Assembly (NCBI GenBank): GCA_016182385.1
Contig: JACPGV010000002.1
Span: 1-55,552 of the forward strand
DNA length: 55,552 nt
From: Candidatus Moraniibacteriota bacterium
GTDB taxonomy: Bacteria > Patescibacteriota > Minisyncoccia > Moranbacterales > UBA1568
Direction of reading: 5' to 3'
Part shown: positions 12,199 through 18,508 of the stretch, piece after piece
Numbering within the stretch: position 1 is the stretch's first letter
Layout: every line of letters begins with the position of its first letter
Program-made: the position numbers and the translations under genes
Notes under the pieces: generated by a model
What the model was told of the DNA's origin: nothing
Databases searched by the model: none
What the model saw: only the letters and a program-made list of their open reading frames with translations

Positions 12199-12567
12199 TC
12201 AACGGGTATTTTTTAGAAACGCCTTCTTGAATGTCTCGAGCGAGAGAAGACCGCATTTGAGCCGCGCAGGGGAAAGCGTCACGCCGAGGAGTTCAAATAC
12301 GTTTTTTGGTTCGAGAGCGAGGGCTTCTTTTACGGATTTGCCTTTGATCGCTTCGGTAAGAAGTGAGGCGCTGGCCTGTGAAATAGCGCACCCAGAACCG
12401 GAAAACTTCACGTCTAGAATAGTATCATTTTTTACGAGAATGTGCATCCCAAGCCGGTCGCCGCAGGTGGGATTATTCGCTTGTGCGCTATGCGTGGCGT
12501 GTTTCAATTCGCCACGATTGCGGGGATTGCGGTAGTGGTCGAGGATGAGATCGTGGTAAATACTCAT
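12199..12567 (-). CDS. sufU: Fe-S cluster scaffold SufU/IscU-like
   Basis: YHDLILDHYRNPRNRGEL, NPTCGDRL, GSGCAISQASASLL, RLKCGLL: three conserved Cys. Confidence 0.92.
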   Translation of the reverse strand: MSIYHDLILDHYRNPRNRGELKHATHSAQANNPTCGDRLGMHILVKNDTILDVKFSGSGCAISQASASLLTEAIKGKSVKEALALEPKNVFELLGVTLSPARLKCGLLSLETFKKAFLKNTR

Positions 12568-13784
12568 AGGATTTTTCTTATTTCCTTCAATCGTTTGATC
12601 AGTCTATCAATGTCTTCTTTTGAATTATAAACCGAGAACGAAAGCCGGGTCGTCGCGTCGAGATTAAGGGCGCGGTGGAGAGGAGCGGCGCAATGTTCGC
12701 CGGCGCGGACGCAGATGTTTGATTCGCCCAAAAGGTGCGCGATATCGTGCGGATGCATACCGTGAATAGCAAAAGCGATGATACCACTACGCTTTTTCGC
12801 ATCTTTCGGGCCAATGAGGCGGATCGTTTTACCGAAAGCTCCGCTCAGTTTTTCGAGAGCGTATTTTGTGAGGGTTTCTTCGTGTGCGCGGATATTTTCG
12901 ACACCGATATTTTTCATAAAATCGATAGCCGCGCCCCATGCGATGACACCTCCGATGTTTGGCGTACCGGCTTCGAAACGAAAGGGGATTTCTCGGTATT
13001 TTGGTGTTTCCGCACAGCTCTCAAGCACCATTCCGCCGCCGAAAGAAACGGGGGGAAGCGTTTCAAGAAGCGCTTCTTTGCCGAAAAGTACGCCGACACC
13101 GGTCGGACCGAATGCTTTGTGTGCGGAAAAGGCGACGAAGTCGGCGTTCCACAAGGAAACATCGATTGGTTGGTGCCCGATCGCCTGTGCCGCATCGACG
13201 ACGACGACAGCGTGTGGATTTTTCTCTTTGATGCGCTTCACGATCTCGGAAACCGGATTGATGCCGCCTATGACATTGGAGACGGCGGAGAAAGCAACAA
13301 TTTTTGTGTGTTCGTCCGTCATATCGACAAGGGCGTCTCTGTCGACGCATTCGTCCGTATCGATCGGCGCGACACGGAATTCGGCGCCCGTTCTTGTGGC
13401 GAGTTCTTTCCACGGAAGGAAATTGGAATGGTGCTCGAGCACGGTTGCAAGGATGTTGTCTTTCGGAGTGACGAGGGATTCGAGGAGTCTCGCGGCGAGG
13501 TTGAGCGAGGCAGTGGCACCATCCGTGAAGATCACCTCTTTTTCGTTTCGAGCGCCGATAAAGGCCGCTGTTTTTTGGCGTGTCATTTCGAACGTGTCCG
13601 TCGCTTTTTCGGCCAGGGGGTAGAGTCCGCGTCCGACATTCGTGGAATACCGTTCCAGATATTCCCGTTCGGCGTCGATTACTGTTTCCGGTTTGAGCGT
13701 CGTCGCGGCCGAATCGAGGTACGTCAAATCAGGATGGTGGCGGAAGATGGGGAAATGGTTTCGAATATCGCTTGTATAGGCCAT
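12564..13784 (-). CDS. sufS: Cysteine desulfurase SufS
   Basis: FPIFRHHPDLTYLDSAATTLKP, DFVAFSAHKAFGPTGVGVLFGK, CVRAGEHCAAPLHRAL. Confidence 0.95.
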   Translation of the reverse strand: MAYTSDIRNHFPIFRHHPDLTYLDSAATTLKPETVIDAEREYLERYSTNVGRGLYPLAEKATDTFEMTRQKTAAFIGARNEKEVIFTDGATASLNLAARLLESLVTPKDNILATVLEHHSNFLPWKELATRTGAEFRVAPIDTDECVDRDALVDMTDEHTKIVAFSAVSNVIGGINPVSEIVKRIKEKNPHAVVVVDAAQAIGHQPIDVSLWNADFVAFSAHKAFGPTGVGVLFGKEALLETLPPVSFGGGMVLESCAETPKYREIPFRFEAGTPNIGGVIAWGAAIDFMKNIGVENIRAHEETLTKYALEKLSGAFGKTIRLIGPKDAKKRSGIIAFAIHGMHPHDIAHLLGESNICVRAGEHCAAPLHRALNLDATTRLSFSVYNSKEDIDRLIKRLKEIRKIL

Positions 13785-13851
13785 AAAATAGAAAAACAGA
13801 CTGAAAGAGTCCGAATTACACTACTCACAAAGATAACATAGCTTCTCGTAA

Positions 13852-13880
13852 TTGACAAGAGTCACAAAAAGTGCTATAAT
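13852..13880 (+). promoter_or_regulatory. Consensus sigma70-like promoter of the DGR target gene
   Basis: TTGACA (13852-13857), 17 bp spacer, TATAAT (13875-13880), ~88 bp upstream of ATG 13968. Confidence 0.85.
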
Positions 13881-13967
13881 GAATCGTTTCGTAGTCATTG
13901 TTTTATTCGACTGCAAACCGCATCTTCCCGGGCGTATCGGGAATGTACTTTTGAAAAGGAGACTGCG

Positions 13968-14672
13968 ATGACGACTCAGTCGATCACGCAAGACCAGGAA
14001 AAGCAACTGAAGCGTTTTCTCGAAGACGCTTCCGTATCAGCGACTCGCTCGGCCCTCGCCCAAGTGCCTCTCGACAAGGAAGGCGCACAGCAGGTCATCG
14101 AGCGGGGGGACGCACTCAAGGCCGAAATCGAACGGGCCACCATCAACGCCCTGAAGAGACTCGGCTCGCGCTACCCGGTGCTTACGGAAACGCGGCTTCT
14201 CAAGCCCGTGGCCCAAGCAACCGTTCCGGCACGAACGAAGCCCTTCAATGTGGCGGAGTTCTACCAGACCGGCCCCGGCCTCTACGTCTACGACACCTTC
14301 GCAGACCGTCTCGACCTCCACGCCAGACAGGCGGTGGACTCGGCTCCCGAGCGTCCCTACGTGGCCTCGCTTCTCAAAGCGAACGCCTACGACAAGGACA
14401 TTCGCAAGGAACTGCCGGAAACCCACCTGTCGACGCTCGAAGACATCGCAGGCCTGATCGAAGCACAGCCCAACGGCAAGTCGGGCTTCCTGCTGAACAA
14501 CGGCTACGCGAACATCTTCTACGTCGAGGGCAAAAACGGTGAAGTCTTCGCCGTGGATGTCTACTGGGGCTCGGACGACCGCGAGTGGGACGTCGGCGGC
14601 TGGGAGCTCGACGAGGATGGCCACTGGGACGCTGACTTCCAGGTTCTCTGCCCAGGCAACGCAGCGCTCTGA
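13968..14672 (+). CDS. DGR target (variable) protein, 234 aa, VR at the C-terminus
   Basis: RBS AAAAGGAGACTGCG-ATG; 3' end forms VR paired with TR at +450 bp; markedly GC-rich (37/60 G+C in 14281-14340). Confidence 0.9.
   Translation: MTTQSITQDQEKQLKRFLEDASVSATRSALAQVPLDKEGAQQVIERGDALKAEIERATINALKRLGSRYPVLTETRLLKPVAQATVPARTKPFNVAEFYQTGPGLYVYDTFADRLDLHARQAVDSAPERPYVASLLKANAYDKDIRKELPETHLSTLEDIAGLIEAQPNGKSGFLLNNGYANIFYVEGKNGEVFAVDVYWGSDDREWDVGGWELDEDGHWDADFQVLCPGNAAL
14541..14657 (+). repeat. DGR variable repeat (VR)
   Basis: 117 bp aligned without gaps to 14991-15107; 17 mismatches, all opposite TR adenines (13 A>G, 3 A>T, 1 A>C). Confidence 0.95.
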
Positions 14673-14718
14673 CCCTTTCGCCACTTCGGCAAAGGACCCT
14701 TGGACCCTTAGTCTCTTA

Positions 14719-14760
14719 GACCCTTGGAACTACAACAAGTTCCCGGGGTCTTTTTCTTTT
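14719..14760 (+). terminator. Intrinsic terminator downstream of DGR target gene
   Basis: GACCCTTGGAAC-tacaacaa-GTTCCCGGGGTC (11/12 pairs incl. one G-U) then TTTTTCTTTT. Confidence 0.8.
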
Positions 14761-14972
14761 GATACAATGAAAGAGGTGTGTTGGAAATTTCTTTCGGCTA
14801 CGGCTGAAAGGTCAGGATACTGGAAGTGAAATGTGCCAGAGTAGTTGCGGAAACTTTCTTCAACTAGAGTGCCACTTTGTTTTCAAAAAATATAATGCGT
14901 TGGTGTCTTGAACTGGCGGACTTCTATGTCCCGCATACGATACAATCCTAAGAGTATTCAAAGGGTGGTGGA

Positions 14973-15134
14973 ATGGATGGTTCAAGGCACAAAGTCTTCG
15001 CCGTGAATGTCAACTGGAACTCGGACAACCGCAAGTGGAACGTCAACGACTGGAAGCTCGACGAGAATGGCAACTGGAACGCTGACAACCAGGTTCTCTG
15101 CCCAGGCCACGCTTCAAATTTCTCTCGTCTTTAA
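14973..15134 (+). ncRNA. DGR template repeat RNA region; exact 5' end unknown
   Basis: TR 14991-15107 followed by a hairpin+T tract; TATAAT at 14892-14897 is a possible upstream -10. Confidence 0.65.
14991..15107 (+). repeat. DGR template repeat (TR)
   Basis: Reads KVFAVNVNWNSDNRKWNVNDWKLDENGNWNADNQVLCPG in the VR frame: 10 AAY codons at positions varied in VR; 3' end CAGGTTCTCTGCCCAGGC identical to VR (IMH-like). Confidence 0.95.
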
Positions 15135-15152
15135 GGCGAGAGTTTTGTTTTT
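15122..15152 (+). terminator. Intrinsic terminator after TR (also overlaps 3' end of minus-strand avd-like gene)
   Basis: Near-perfect palindrome CTCTCGTCTTTAAGGCGAGAG followed by TTTTGTTTTT. Confidence 0.8.
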
Positions 15153-15515
15153 AGGCCTTTCTTCCAGCCCCCAAGCATCCGACCGATTTCCTGAAGTTCC
15201 GTAGAGAGTCCGAGGTATTTTTTGTTATCGATTAGCTTATTTTCCCAGCCGATTTGTAGGAAGAATTTGAGAAGATCGGTTTTACCGATGATAGCGGTCA
15301 GATACTGGATTTTAGTTTCCGGCTTTGCGTATTGGGCTCGGAAGAGGAGCTCAAGCGTATCGAGGAAGAGACGATCGATTTTTTCGCCAAATGTGTAACG
15401 ATGAATTTTTGGAATATGAGCGATAAAACTTTGCCACAGCTGATAGGCGGCCTTCAGTTGAACAATGACGCTGATTTGTCCCGATCCTGCGGGGGGGGGT
15501 ATTTCCAGGAATCAT
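15131..15515 (-). pseudogene. avd-like DGR accessory (four-helix-bundle) gene, frameshifted at a C9/G9 tract (15491-15499)
   Basis: Manual minus-strand translation: ISVIVQLKAAYQLWQSFIAHIPKIHRYTFGEKIDRLFLDTLELLFRAQYAKPETKIQYLTAIIGKTDLLKFFLQIGWENKLIDNKKYLGLSTELQEIGRMLGGWKKGLKTKLSP*; removing one C restores MIPGNTPPAGSGQ- from ATG at 15515. Confidence 0.85.
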
Positions 15516-16556
15516 TATAGGAAAAAGAAGAAAAAATTAGTCGTTTCTTATGATGATATCATATCCCTCGAGAATCTCCTTGCCGCGTGGAAGGAATTCC
15601 TGAAAGGAAAAAGGAACAAAAAGGACGTCCAGGAATTCGAAGCACATCTTATGGACAATCTCTTCGTGCTCTACGAAGATCTGAAAAACAAGACCTACGA
15701 GCACGGCGGCTATCAGGCTTTTAAAATCAATGATCCGAAGCCGCGCGATATTCACAAGGCGTCAGTGAGAGATCGTCTCGTACATCGCGCCATTTACCGG
15801 ATTCTCTATCCGTTCTTTGACACGCTCTTCATCGCTGATTCGTATTCCTGCCGAGAGGGGAAGGGCACGCACAAGGCACTCGATCGTTTCAGGGTCTTTT
15901 CCCGAAAGGTTTCTTGCAACCATACCAAGACCACTTGGGTGCTCAAGTGCGACATCCGGAAATTTTTTGCATCGATCGATCAGGATATCCTCTTGCGTAT
16001 TCTTCGTGAGTGGATCCAAGACGAAGATATTCTGTGGCTGCTGGGGAAGGTAGTACGAAGTTTTTCTTCTTCGACAGCGCGAAATGTCGGATTGCCGCTT
16101 GGCAATCTTACCTCACAGCTTCTCGTGAACATCTCTATGAATGAATTTGATCAATTCGTGAAACATCGATTGCGGGCAAGATATTACATTCGATACGCCG
16201 ATGACTTTGTCATCTTGTCTCGGGACAAAGTATGGTTAGAGTGTATCTTGGCAGAGATAGGGAGGTTCTTGGATGAAAGGCTACATCTCAAATTGCATCC
16301 GGACAAAGTGTTTATCCAAACAGTCGTTTCGGGTGTCGATTTTCTTGGCTGGATGCACTTTTCTGATCATTGCGTGCTGCGGACGGTGACAAAAAAGAGG
16401 ATGTTCCGGAAACTCTGCGAGAAGAACATTTTCTCGTATCTCGGATTGCTTTCGCATGGGAACGGGTATCGGTTGCGAAGAAAACTCACTTCCTTATTTT
16501 TCAGCGATGGAAAGAAACTGTCTGAGGGTAGGGAGGATATCTTTTTCGACGAGTAG
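15465..16556 (+). CDS. DGR-type reverse transcriptase
   Basis: VLKCDIRKFFASIDQ, GLPLGNLTSQLLVNI (DGR-type xGxxxSQ), YIRYADDFVIL, LKLHPDKVFIQ, VDFLGW; RT homology begins near 15540 so true start is uncertain. Confidence 0.92.
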   Translation: MTLICPDPAGGGISRNHYRKKKKKLVVSYDDIISLENLLAAWKEFLKGKRNKKDVQEFEAHLMDNLFVLYEDLKNKTYEHGGYQAFKINDPKPRDIHKASVRDRLVHRAIYRILYPFFDTLFIADSYSCREGKGTHKALDRFRVFSRKVSCNHTKTTWVLKCDIRKFFASIDQDILLRILREWIQDEDILWLLGKVVRSFSSSTARNVGLPLGNLTSQLLVNISMNEFDQFVKHRLRARYYIRYADDFVILSRDKVWLECILAEIGRFLDERLHLKLHPDKVFIQTVVSGVDFLGWMHFSDHCVLRTVTKKRMFRKLCEKNIFSYLGLLSHGNGYRLRRKLTSLFFSDGKKLSEGREDIFFDE

Positions 16557-17090
16557 CTTCATTTTTTCCAAAGTTTCATTGAAGAATCCGTCGACTAGAA
16601 GTTGTTGTGCTTGTTTTTTTGAAAGACCTCTCGACTGGGCGAAGAAGAGCTGTTTTGGATCGAAAGATGCGATAGCAGCGGCGTGGTGACATTTCACGTT
16701 ATTCGTAAGAATTTCGAGCGTCGGCTTGGCGGATGCTTGGGCGAACGGCGAGAGAAGGAGCGCACGACATTCGTATGAGGCGTCACTTCTCGCGGCCTTT
16801 TTTTCAATTTTTATCAATCCTTCCGAAGAAAACGTCGCCTCATCGAAGAGAGCCGTTTTTACGATCGCACGGGAGACGGTATTGGGCGCGGAATGTTTTT
16901 GGACGAGAGAAAGAGTTTTTTGTTCCGTATTTTTTCCCGTGAAAAGGGCGAAAATATGCGCCTCGGCGCCAATGTCTGTGAGTTCGAACGTGATACTTCC
17001 AAAACGATTGAGAAGAAAGAAAACAGCCTTCTCATTCTTTTTGAGACGATAGGTGTTGTTTGTGTCGGTTGAAATATCAAGAAATCGCAT
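16494..17090 (-). CDS. sufD: SufD-like Fe-S assembly protein (short form)
   Basis: SufBD C-terminal core: ILTNNVKCHHAAAIASFDPKQLFFAQSRGLSKKQAQQLLVDGFFNE; directly downstream of sufB. Confidence 0.85.
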   Translation of the reverse strand: MRFLDISTDTNNTYRLKKNEKAVFFLLNRFGSITFELTDIGAEAHIFALFTGKNTEQKTLSLVQKHSAPNTVSRAIVKTALFDEATFSSEGLIKIEKKAARSDASYECRALLLSPFAQASAKPTLEILTNNVKCHHAAAIASFDPKQLFFAQSRGLSKKQAQQLLVDGFFNETLEKMKLLVEKDILPTLRQFLSIAEK

Positions 17091-17101
17091 AGAGAGGATG
17101 T

Positions 17102-18508
17102 TTATCCGATGGCGTTTTCCATCTCGAGATTGATCAGGCGGTTGAGTTCGATGGAATACTCCAAAGGAATTTCTTTGACGATGGGGTCGATGAAGCCGTT
17201 CACGAGGAGTCCCGTGGCATCTTCTTTTTTTATGCCGCGTGAGGCGAGATAGAAAAGTTTTTCTTCGTCGATTTTTTCGGCGGTGGCCTCGTGTTCAACG
17301 CGCGCGCTCGCGTTTTTTACGTTCATTGTTGGAAACGTATCGGAGCGGGAGCGTTCGTCAAGGATGAGCGCGTCGCAAACAACAGAAGACTTCGCGTTTT
17401 TCGCGCCTTTGGCGATGTGGACGAGACCGCGATAGGAAGAGCGGCCGCCGTCTTTGGAAATGGATTTGGAGATGACGCGCGAGCAGGTATCGGGTGCGAG
17501 ATGGATCATCTTGGCACCGGTGTCTTGATGCTGGTGGCGCCCGGCGTAGGCGATAGAAAGCACTTCACCGCGTGCGCCTTTGCCCGCGAGGTAGACAGCC
17601 GGATATTTCATCGTGACACCGGACCCGATGTTGCAGTCCACCCATTCCATCACGGCGTTTTCTTCGGCCCGGGCGCGTTTGGTGACGAGGTTATAGATGT
17701 TTTTGCTCCAATTTTGAACGGTGGTGTAGCGGACGCGCGCGTTTTTTTTGACGAAGATCTCCACGACGGCGGAATGGAGTGACGAGGTGCGATAGATGGG
17801 AGCGGTGCAGCCTTCGATGTAATGCACGTAGCTTCCTTCTTCCGCCACGATGAGCGTGCGTTCGAATTGGCCGAAAGATTCGGCATTGATACGGAAGTAG
17901 GCCTGGAGAGGGAGGGTGACGTGGACGCCTTTGGGGATGTAAACGAACGAGCCGCCCGACCAGACGGCGGAATTGAGCGCGGCGAATTTGTTGTCTTGGG
18001 GCGGAATAAGCGTGCCGAAGTATTCCCGAACGATGCTCGGATATTTTTTTACCGCCGTGTCCATATCGCAAAAGATGACACCTCTTTTTTCCAATTCTTT
18101 GTGGACGCTTTCGTAGACGACCTCCGATTCGTATTGCGCGCTGACACCCGCAAGAAAATTCTTTTCTGCTTCCGGTACGCCGATCCGGTCGTACGTTTCT
18201 TTGATTTCTCGGGGAAGATCTTCCCAATTTTTTGATTGTCGGTCAGTTGCTTTGAGGTAATAGGTGATGGCATCAAAGTCGATCGTCGAAAGATTGGCAC
18301 CCCACTTCGGGAGCAGCTTTTGTTTGAAGATCTCATAGGCACGCAGACGGAAATCGCGCATCCATTTCTCTTCGCCTTTGACGCGGGAGATTTCCGTGAC
18401 GACTGCTTTACGCAAACCGACATTTGTTTTGTGAACGGATTTTTCCGGCATGGAAAAACCAAATTGATAGTCGAAGTCGATTTTCTTATGTTGCTTCTTG
18501 TTCTTCAT
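17102..18508 (-). CDS. sufB: Fe-S cluster assembly protein SufB
   Basis: SGGSFVYIPKGVHVTLPLQAYFRIN, GCTAPIYRTSSLHSAVVEI, FPTMNVKNASARVEHEATAEKIDEEKLFYL. Confidence 0.95.
   Translation of the reverse strand: MKNKKQHKKIDFDYQFGFSMPEKSVHKTNVGLRKAVVTEISRVKGEEKWMRDFRLRAYEIFKQKLLPKWGANLSTIDFDAITYYLKATDRQSKNWEDLPREIKETYDRIGVPEAEKNFLAGVSAQYESEVVYESVHKELEKRGVIFCDMDTAVKKYPSIVREYFGTLIPPQDNKFAALNSAVWSGGSFVYIPKGVHVTLPLQAYFRINAESFGQFERTLIVAEEGSYVHYIEGCTAPIYRTSSLHSAVVEIFVKKNARVRYTTVQNWSKNIYNLVTKRARAEENAVMEWVDCNIGSGVTMKYPAVYLAGKGARGEVLSIAYAGRHQHQDTGAKMIHLAPDTCSRVISKSISKDGGRSSYRGLVHIAKGAKNAKSSVVCDALILDERSRSDTFPTMNVKNASARVEHEATAEKIDEEKLFYLASRGIKKEDATGLLVNGFIDPIVKEIPLEYSIELNRLINLEMENAIG

Follow-up and report, generated by a model that had tools for sequence, protein, structure and literature searches.

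Diversity-generating retroelements (DGRs) are already known, including DGRs of the CPR/Patescibacteria, and so are SSR contingency loci, which mostly switch surface or modification genes. In the DGR of the Bordetella phage BPP-1 (mtd-avd-TR-brt), Avd is required for DGR activity, and its inactivation brings activity down to ~1e-9 (PMC12875486). DGR clade 2, as described by Roux et al. in 2021, is restricted to Patescibacteria and shows lower-than-average activity (PMC8144416); the words Avd and phase variation are absent from the main text of that paper. Among the full texts in PMC, a collection outside which subscription journals and most preprints lie, we found no paper that joins DGRs to repeat-based phase variation.

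Here we describe a DGR in a window of 55,552 nucleotides from a Candidatus Moraniibacteriota bacterium (assembly GCA_016182385.1, contig JACPGV010000002.1, positions 1 to 55,552 of the forward strand). The locus has the same parts as the BPP-1 DGR, with adenine-specific change from the template repeat (TR) to the variable repeat (VR) and a reverse transcriptase (RT) of the xGxxxSQ kind. Unlike BPP-1, in which avd lies upstream of the TR, the window carries avd in antisense between the TR and the RT gene, a terminator-like hairpin follows the TR within tens of bases, and a simple repeat lies between the avd ATG and the Avd domain. As in DGR clade 2, the host is a member of the Patescibacteria, the element is cellular and the targets are without recognizable domains (PMC8144416); from the host and the RT relatives, rather than from a clade 2 tree, we infer that the locus belongs to this clade. 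The repeat tract is new here relative to clade 2 as described in PMC8144416. Like the SSR contingency loci of Neisseria, Campylobacter and Haemophilus, the loci studied here have homopolymers or 2-, 4- or 5-nt repeats near the 5' end of an open reading frame, and out-of-frame alleles are common. Unlike in the known SSR contingency loci, the switch would act on a gene that a targeted mutator cannot do without, and the repeat is located where two divergent genes overlap. Our reading, to which we assign a probability of about 0.83, is that slippage of the repeat phase-varies avd, and perhaps the RT in some loci, so that the mutator itself would be a contingency locus.

The VR (14541-14657, plus strand) aligns to the TR (14991-15107, plus strand) at a constant offset of 450 bp, with no indels over the 117-bp repeat. 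All 17 mismatches are opposite a TR adenine (13 A>G, 3 A>T and 1 A>C); with 34 adenines among the 117 TR positions, the hypergeometric p is 2.0e-11. The mismatch at 14541 is the edge of the repeat (the repeat finder begins at 14542), and the other 16 are fully internal. The pair reported in the initial annotation is thus borne out base for base in its coordinates, offset and mismatch counts, at p about 2e-11, and a recount from the sequence agrees with its 14 residue changes and 10 AAY codons. Among relatives, a TR/VR pair was present in 76 of 79, and 1356 of 1481 mismatches were at A. The TR/VR mismatches in the window prove past DGR activity. The annotation had gone further and taken the element to be actively diversifying its target, which the sequence does not show: the mismatches speak of past activity, and in this assembly a 9-G tract puts the start codon of avd in a different frame from its domain.

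The VR is located at the C-terminus of a target gene of 234 aa (13968-14672, plus strand); 17 other loci carry DGR targets homologous to it. Upstream of this gene is a promoter-like site, TTGACA-17-TATAAT (13852-13880, plus strand), which matches the consensus at 12/12 positions with an extended TG and is a consensus match only. No Pfam, NCBIfam or PHROG family scored above cut-off for the target; the Pfam family SU10_MCP (E 0.03, below cut-off) was taken as a chance match, and a PDB sequence search with the target profile returned nothing convincing. A C-type-lectin-like fold, raised earlier for the target, was not confirmed, as the predicted model had a mean pLDDT of 83.6 and a PDB fold search gave no match at E < 0.001. 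The VR and TR share their 3' end, CAGGTTCTCTGCCCAGGC, and there is a stable hairpin near 14718-14751 (z -1.9); the two are candidates for the IMH and for the hairpin that follows the VR.

The TR resembles a compact stand-alone transcription unit, both in the window (14869-15151) and in relatives. It comprises a promoter-like site upstream of the TR (14869-14896, plus strand; 10/12, a consensus match only), a leader with the motif GAGTATTCAAAGGGTGGTGG about 35 nt before the TR, which is also present in relatives, and a terminator-like hairpin with a T-run directly 3' of the TR (15122-15151, plus strand), between the 3' ends of the TR and avd. When only perfect stems were accepted, at least 38 of 76 relatives had a similar hairpin after the TR. 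The region 3' of the TR is much shorter than the BPP-1 spacer, and cDNA priming may therefore differ from that of BPP-1. An Rfam scan of 13800-16600 found no known RNA.

The RT gene (15465-16556, plus strand) encodes 363 aa if read from the ATG at 15465 through the G tract. Its product matches PF00078 at 92 bits (cut-off 29.6) and the PHROG RT family at 5.6e-111, and it contains a YADD box and the motif LGNLTSQ, as expected from the xGxxxSQ type first assigned to it. An avd-like gene had been listed as well, with no coordinates, strand or frame. Such a gene is present on the minus strand, at ~15131-15515, but it is not one frame with an ATG: the open frame (15131-15511, minus strand) has a Pro-Pro-Pro leader, a stop codon at 15131-15133 and no in-frame start at the present tract length. 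Its translation matches PF22296 at 49.6 bits (cut-off 40) and the PHROG Avd family at 1.8e-18; the NCBIfam Avd score of 64.1 bits is below the cut-off of 80 for that family. The AlphaFold model of Avd is a four-helix bundle (pLDDT 92) with a disordered Pro-rich N-terminus, and it matches BPP-1 Avd (4dwl) with a TM of 0.8-0.9, as well as 8ub7 and the DGR RNP structures (~0.8-0.9). With RT, TR, VR, target and Avd each positive, and the RT placed within the Patescibacteria DGR group, the earlier description of a complete DGR stands. The cassette apparently lies inside an Fe-S assembly (suf) cluster (12199-18508) of opposite orientation, between SufS-like (12564-13784, minus strand) and SufD/SufB-like (16494-18508, minus strand) sequences, names given by reading translations only; the SufD-like open reading frame and the 3' end of the RT gene share ~60 bp.

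The 5' ends of avd and the RT gene overlap head to head, and the repeat is inside this overlap, between the avd ATG and the Avd domain. In the window, it is a homopolymer of 9 G (15491-15499, plus strand; poly-C on the avd strand) that is conserved in relatives, and we propose it as the phase-variation tract. With this 9-bp G/C homopolymer between the two, the avd ATG (15513-15515, minus strand) is in a different frame from the Avd domain and yields a dead-end product of 54 aa. As computed, tract lengths of 8, 11 or 14 encode full-length Avd, whereas lengths of 9, 10, 12 or 13 do not. Nothing else in the locus is as unusual as the G tract; the initial annotation passed over both the tract and the antisense orientation of avd.

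The host genome is of the Patescibacteria type, with 775,714 bases and a completeness of 98.6%. It contains three DGRs of the same build, the other two being located at ~8.9 kb on C6 and at ~207.7 kb on C2, and exactly three Avd genes, one per cassette. The G tracts at the three avd/RT junctions differ in length: 9 in the window, 10 in a second cassette (avd in frame) and 11 in the third (avd out of frame). These junctions hold the only G9+/C9+ runs of the entire genome. Domains of MutS and MutL were not detected in this nearly complete genome, and 11 of 14 control genomes gave matches; slippage would thus go uncorrected.

Is the repeat a general feature of such loci? A first scan of genome contigs yielded 80 related RT loci, nearly all of them with a G run ~30-60 bp upstream of the conserved RT motif Y-x-x-I-I-S; in this first set, G/C8+ runs were ~1,000-fold enriched at the site. 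With the first 80-odd loci kept as the discovery set, searches at the order, class and phylum levels, together with fetched regions, gave 273 unique loci with an antisense avd, all processed with one script. Duplicate loci (L038/L016, L039/L009/L019 and L045/L017) were dropped by exact-sequence de-duplication before the counts. A repeat was found in 231 of the 273 loci: 200 had poly-G (6-14), 31 had another repeat, and the remaining 42 had none. The repeat units were of 1 nt (200 loci), 2 nt (29), 4 nt (1) and 5 nt (1), and no trinucleotide repeat occurred at the avd/RT site among the 231 repeat loci. The repeats other than poly-G include (GA)n of up to 18 units, (GT)12, (TG)14, (CT)10, (ATTG)7 and (TGTCC)8. 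Compared with the rest of the same loci, simple repeats are ~240-fold enriched at the site. The tract is absent in the controls, which were DGR RTs of viral contigs, more distant in sequence, and other DGR RTs. The same bacterial family also contains DGR-like RTs of another, more distantly related kind, without the tract (L013/L031, L026, L027 and L032); at least two of these cases, L013/L031 and L032, adjoin sequences ending in ...GFSVRC..., which resemble the TR/VR of a different target type.

We then compared the avd reading frame in loci with and without a repeat; a repeat that switches avd should leave it frequently out of frame in the former but not in the latter. The avd ATG was in frame in 56 of the 231 repeat loci versus 39 of the 42 loci without a repeat (p = 1.3e-17), which leaves 175 of the 231 repeat loci with no in-frame ATG. 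The held-out loci gave the same result, with an in-frame ATG in 30 of 127 poly-G loci versus 27 of 29 loci with none (p = 2.5e-12), and avd was in frame in 8 of the 31 loci with repeats other than poly-G. Of the three out-of-frame exceptions that lack a tract, two are N-masked at the site and one has a broken GAG/G tract. An ATG open to the repeat was located at most 60 nt upstream in 183 of 183 loci, compared to ~45% in shuffled sequence; with a looser repeat pattern, such an ATG was scored in 221 of 229 loci and not in the other 8. Judged by the nearest ATG, the avd frame was shifted by 1 in 87 loci, by 2 in 61 and by 0 in 35. The start codon also leaves a trace on the opposite strand. Near the RT N-terminus of many loci, the His codon complementary to the avd ATG is CAT in 151 cases and CAC in 1, versus a CAT:CAC ratio of 733:480 elsewhere in the RT. 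Out-of-frame avd is under purifying selection: the open reading frame is intact in 129 of 133 out-of-frame poly-G loci, and the dN/dS of out-of-frame avd has a median of 0.09, with 68 of 68 pairs below 1. Two features that mark an SSR contingency locus are present, namely, a repeat of non-3-nt units between start codon and gene body that is in frame at some lengths, and common out-of-frame alleles with the gene body kept intact.

The loci come from short-read metagenome assemblies with one genome per species, in which homopolymer miscounts are possible. A search of the public collections for near-identical loci that differ in tract length found none within a species, and length differences were seen between species only. 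The clearest pair is L319, with (GA)6 and avd in frame, versus L325, with (GA)8 and avd out of frame; the two avd genes are 95% identical. The genomes of these loci (G169 and G259, respectively) have been placed in separate families within the class, and an avd identity of 95% across families suggests recent transfer of the cassette or misbinning. On the RT tree, the poly-G label has at least 13 changes that are forced by supported branches. Because repeat labels change this many times, the association of repeat and frame is not the effect of one lineage. Phylogenetically independent pairs followed the expected direction in 6.1 of 8 (median p 0.07), which is suggestive only.

How might such a switch operate? 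In the mechanism that we propose, a complex of RT and Avd would copy TR RNA with errors at adenines, and the copy would replace the VR in the target gene. Replication slippage, in cells without mismatch repair, would change the number of repeat units, and, with units that are never a multiple of 3 nt, each gain or loss would shift the frame of avd, bringing it in or out. Retrohoming would follow Avd, since Avd inactivation abolishes most BPP-1 DGR activity (PMC12875486), and both Avd and mutagenic retrohoming would be ON in only a minority of cells. From the sequences we infer that tract length varies within populations, that out-of-frame cells lose Avd and that DGR activity changes with it.

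Most poly-G loci (118 of 172) have a separate RT start on the downstream side of the tract, so that only avd would be affected. Where the RT has no such start, as in the window, the same tract may switch the RT as well. There are 65 repeat loci, the window included, with no ATG, GTG or TTG between the repeat and the RT domain (in the window, none of the three is found in frame there), and in these loci the RT would need to be read through the repeat from its other side. An RT start was in frame in 12 of 12 of them when avd was in frame versus 22 of 53 when avd was out of frame (p = 1.7e-4), which suggests that avd and the RT are co-switched by one tract in a subset of loci. Co-switching is not simple in the window because the two ATGs require different tract lengths to be in frame: 9 G for the RT read from 15465, and 8 or 11 for avd. 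A wider proposal, which in our estimate falls a little short of even odds, is that one hypermutable repeat in an antisense head-to-head overlap stochastically switches targeted mutagenesis (Avd and, in a subset, the RT) in much of the Patescibacteria. Contingency would then operate on two tiers, with a random switch placed on a programmed gene diversifier.

The main rival to slippage of the DNA is slippage in transcription or translation, in which the genome would keep avd permanently out of frame and small amounts of full-length Avd would arise by transcriptional slippage or ribosomal frameshifting on the repeat. We consider this less likely and give it only a small chance. It would accommodate an in-frame share of 24%, which is below the 1/3 expected under free drift (p = 0.003), and the shared tract length of several close pairs, among them the closest (96% identical, G11/G11). 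If slippage takes place in the DNA, this in-frame share means that phase variation needs OFF-biased selection or another rule, and the several close pairs that keep one tract length mean that slippage may be slow. However, both wrong phases are common (87 and 61 loci), unlike what is expected of a programmed frameshift, and we rejected a single programmed frameshift for this reason. The repeat type also varies freely among (GA)n, (GT)n, (CT)n, (ATTG)7 and (TGTCC)8, a behavior that, to our knowledge, is typical of DNA slippage and not of frameshift signals. Finally, near-identical avd genes carry (GA)6 and (GA)8.

An ordinary DGR, in which the Pro-rich leader is neutral or distorted by assembly and avd is constitutive, with a non-ATG start or with homopolymers that were miscounted, is in our view very improbable. 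Homopolymers are indeed error-prone in assemblies, and the RT of the window is also without an obvious start downstream of the tract. Neutral Pro/Gly codons, however, would be expected to pick up third-position changes before long, whereas 200 loci retain pure runs. Miscounted homopolymers also do not account for the di-, tetra- and pentanucleotide repeats, which show the same out-of-frame excess. Conservation of the antisense ATG codon (151 CAT to 1 CAC) likewise argues against this explanation. The least probable reading of all is that the tract is a polypurine, triplex or G-quadruplex element for cDNA priming or RNP assembly that alters the frame of avd only incidentally. In its favor, the RT strand of most tracts is polypurine, either poly-G or (GA)n. 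We set such a role aside, however, once CT, GT, ATTG and TGTCC repeats were found at the same site [(GT)n, (CT)n, (TG)14, (ATTG)7 and (TGTCC)8]; DGRs of other kinds have no tract, and neither the in-frame avd of repeat-less loci (39 of 42) nor units that are never 3 nt would be expected of a structural element.

The restraint of protein hypermutators in bacteria is an open question. If the DGRs of Patescibacteria are phase variable through repeat slippage, this would explain the lower metagenomic activity of their DGR clade; the low activity of clade 2 fits a population that is mostly OFF, but it does not prove one. Tract length would then be a simple sequence readout of the cells able to diversify, and the idea can be checked by anyone with reads from such genomes. 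Slippage contingency loci and mutagenic retrohoming, two mechanisms of evolvability, would be joined in one locus.
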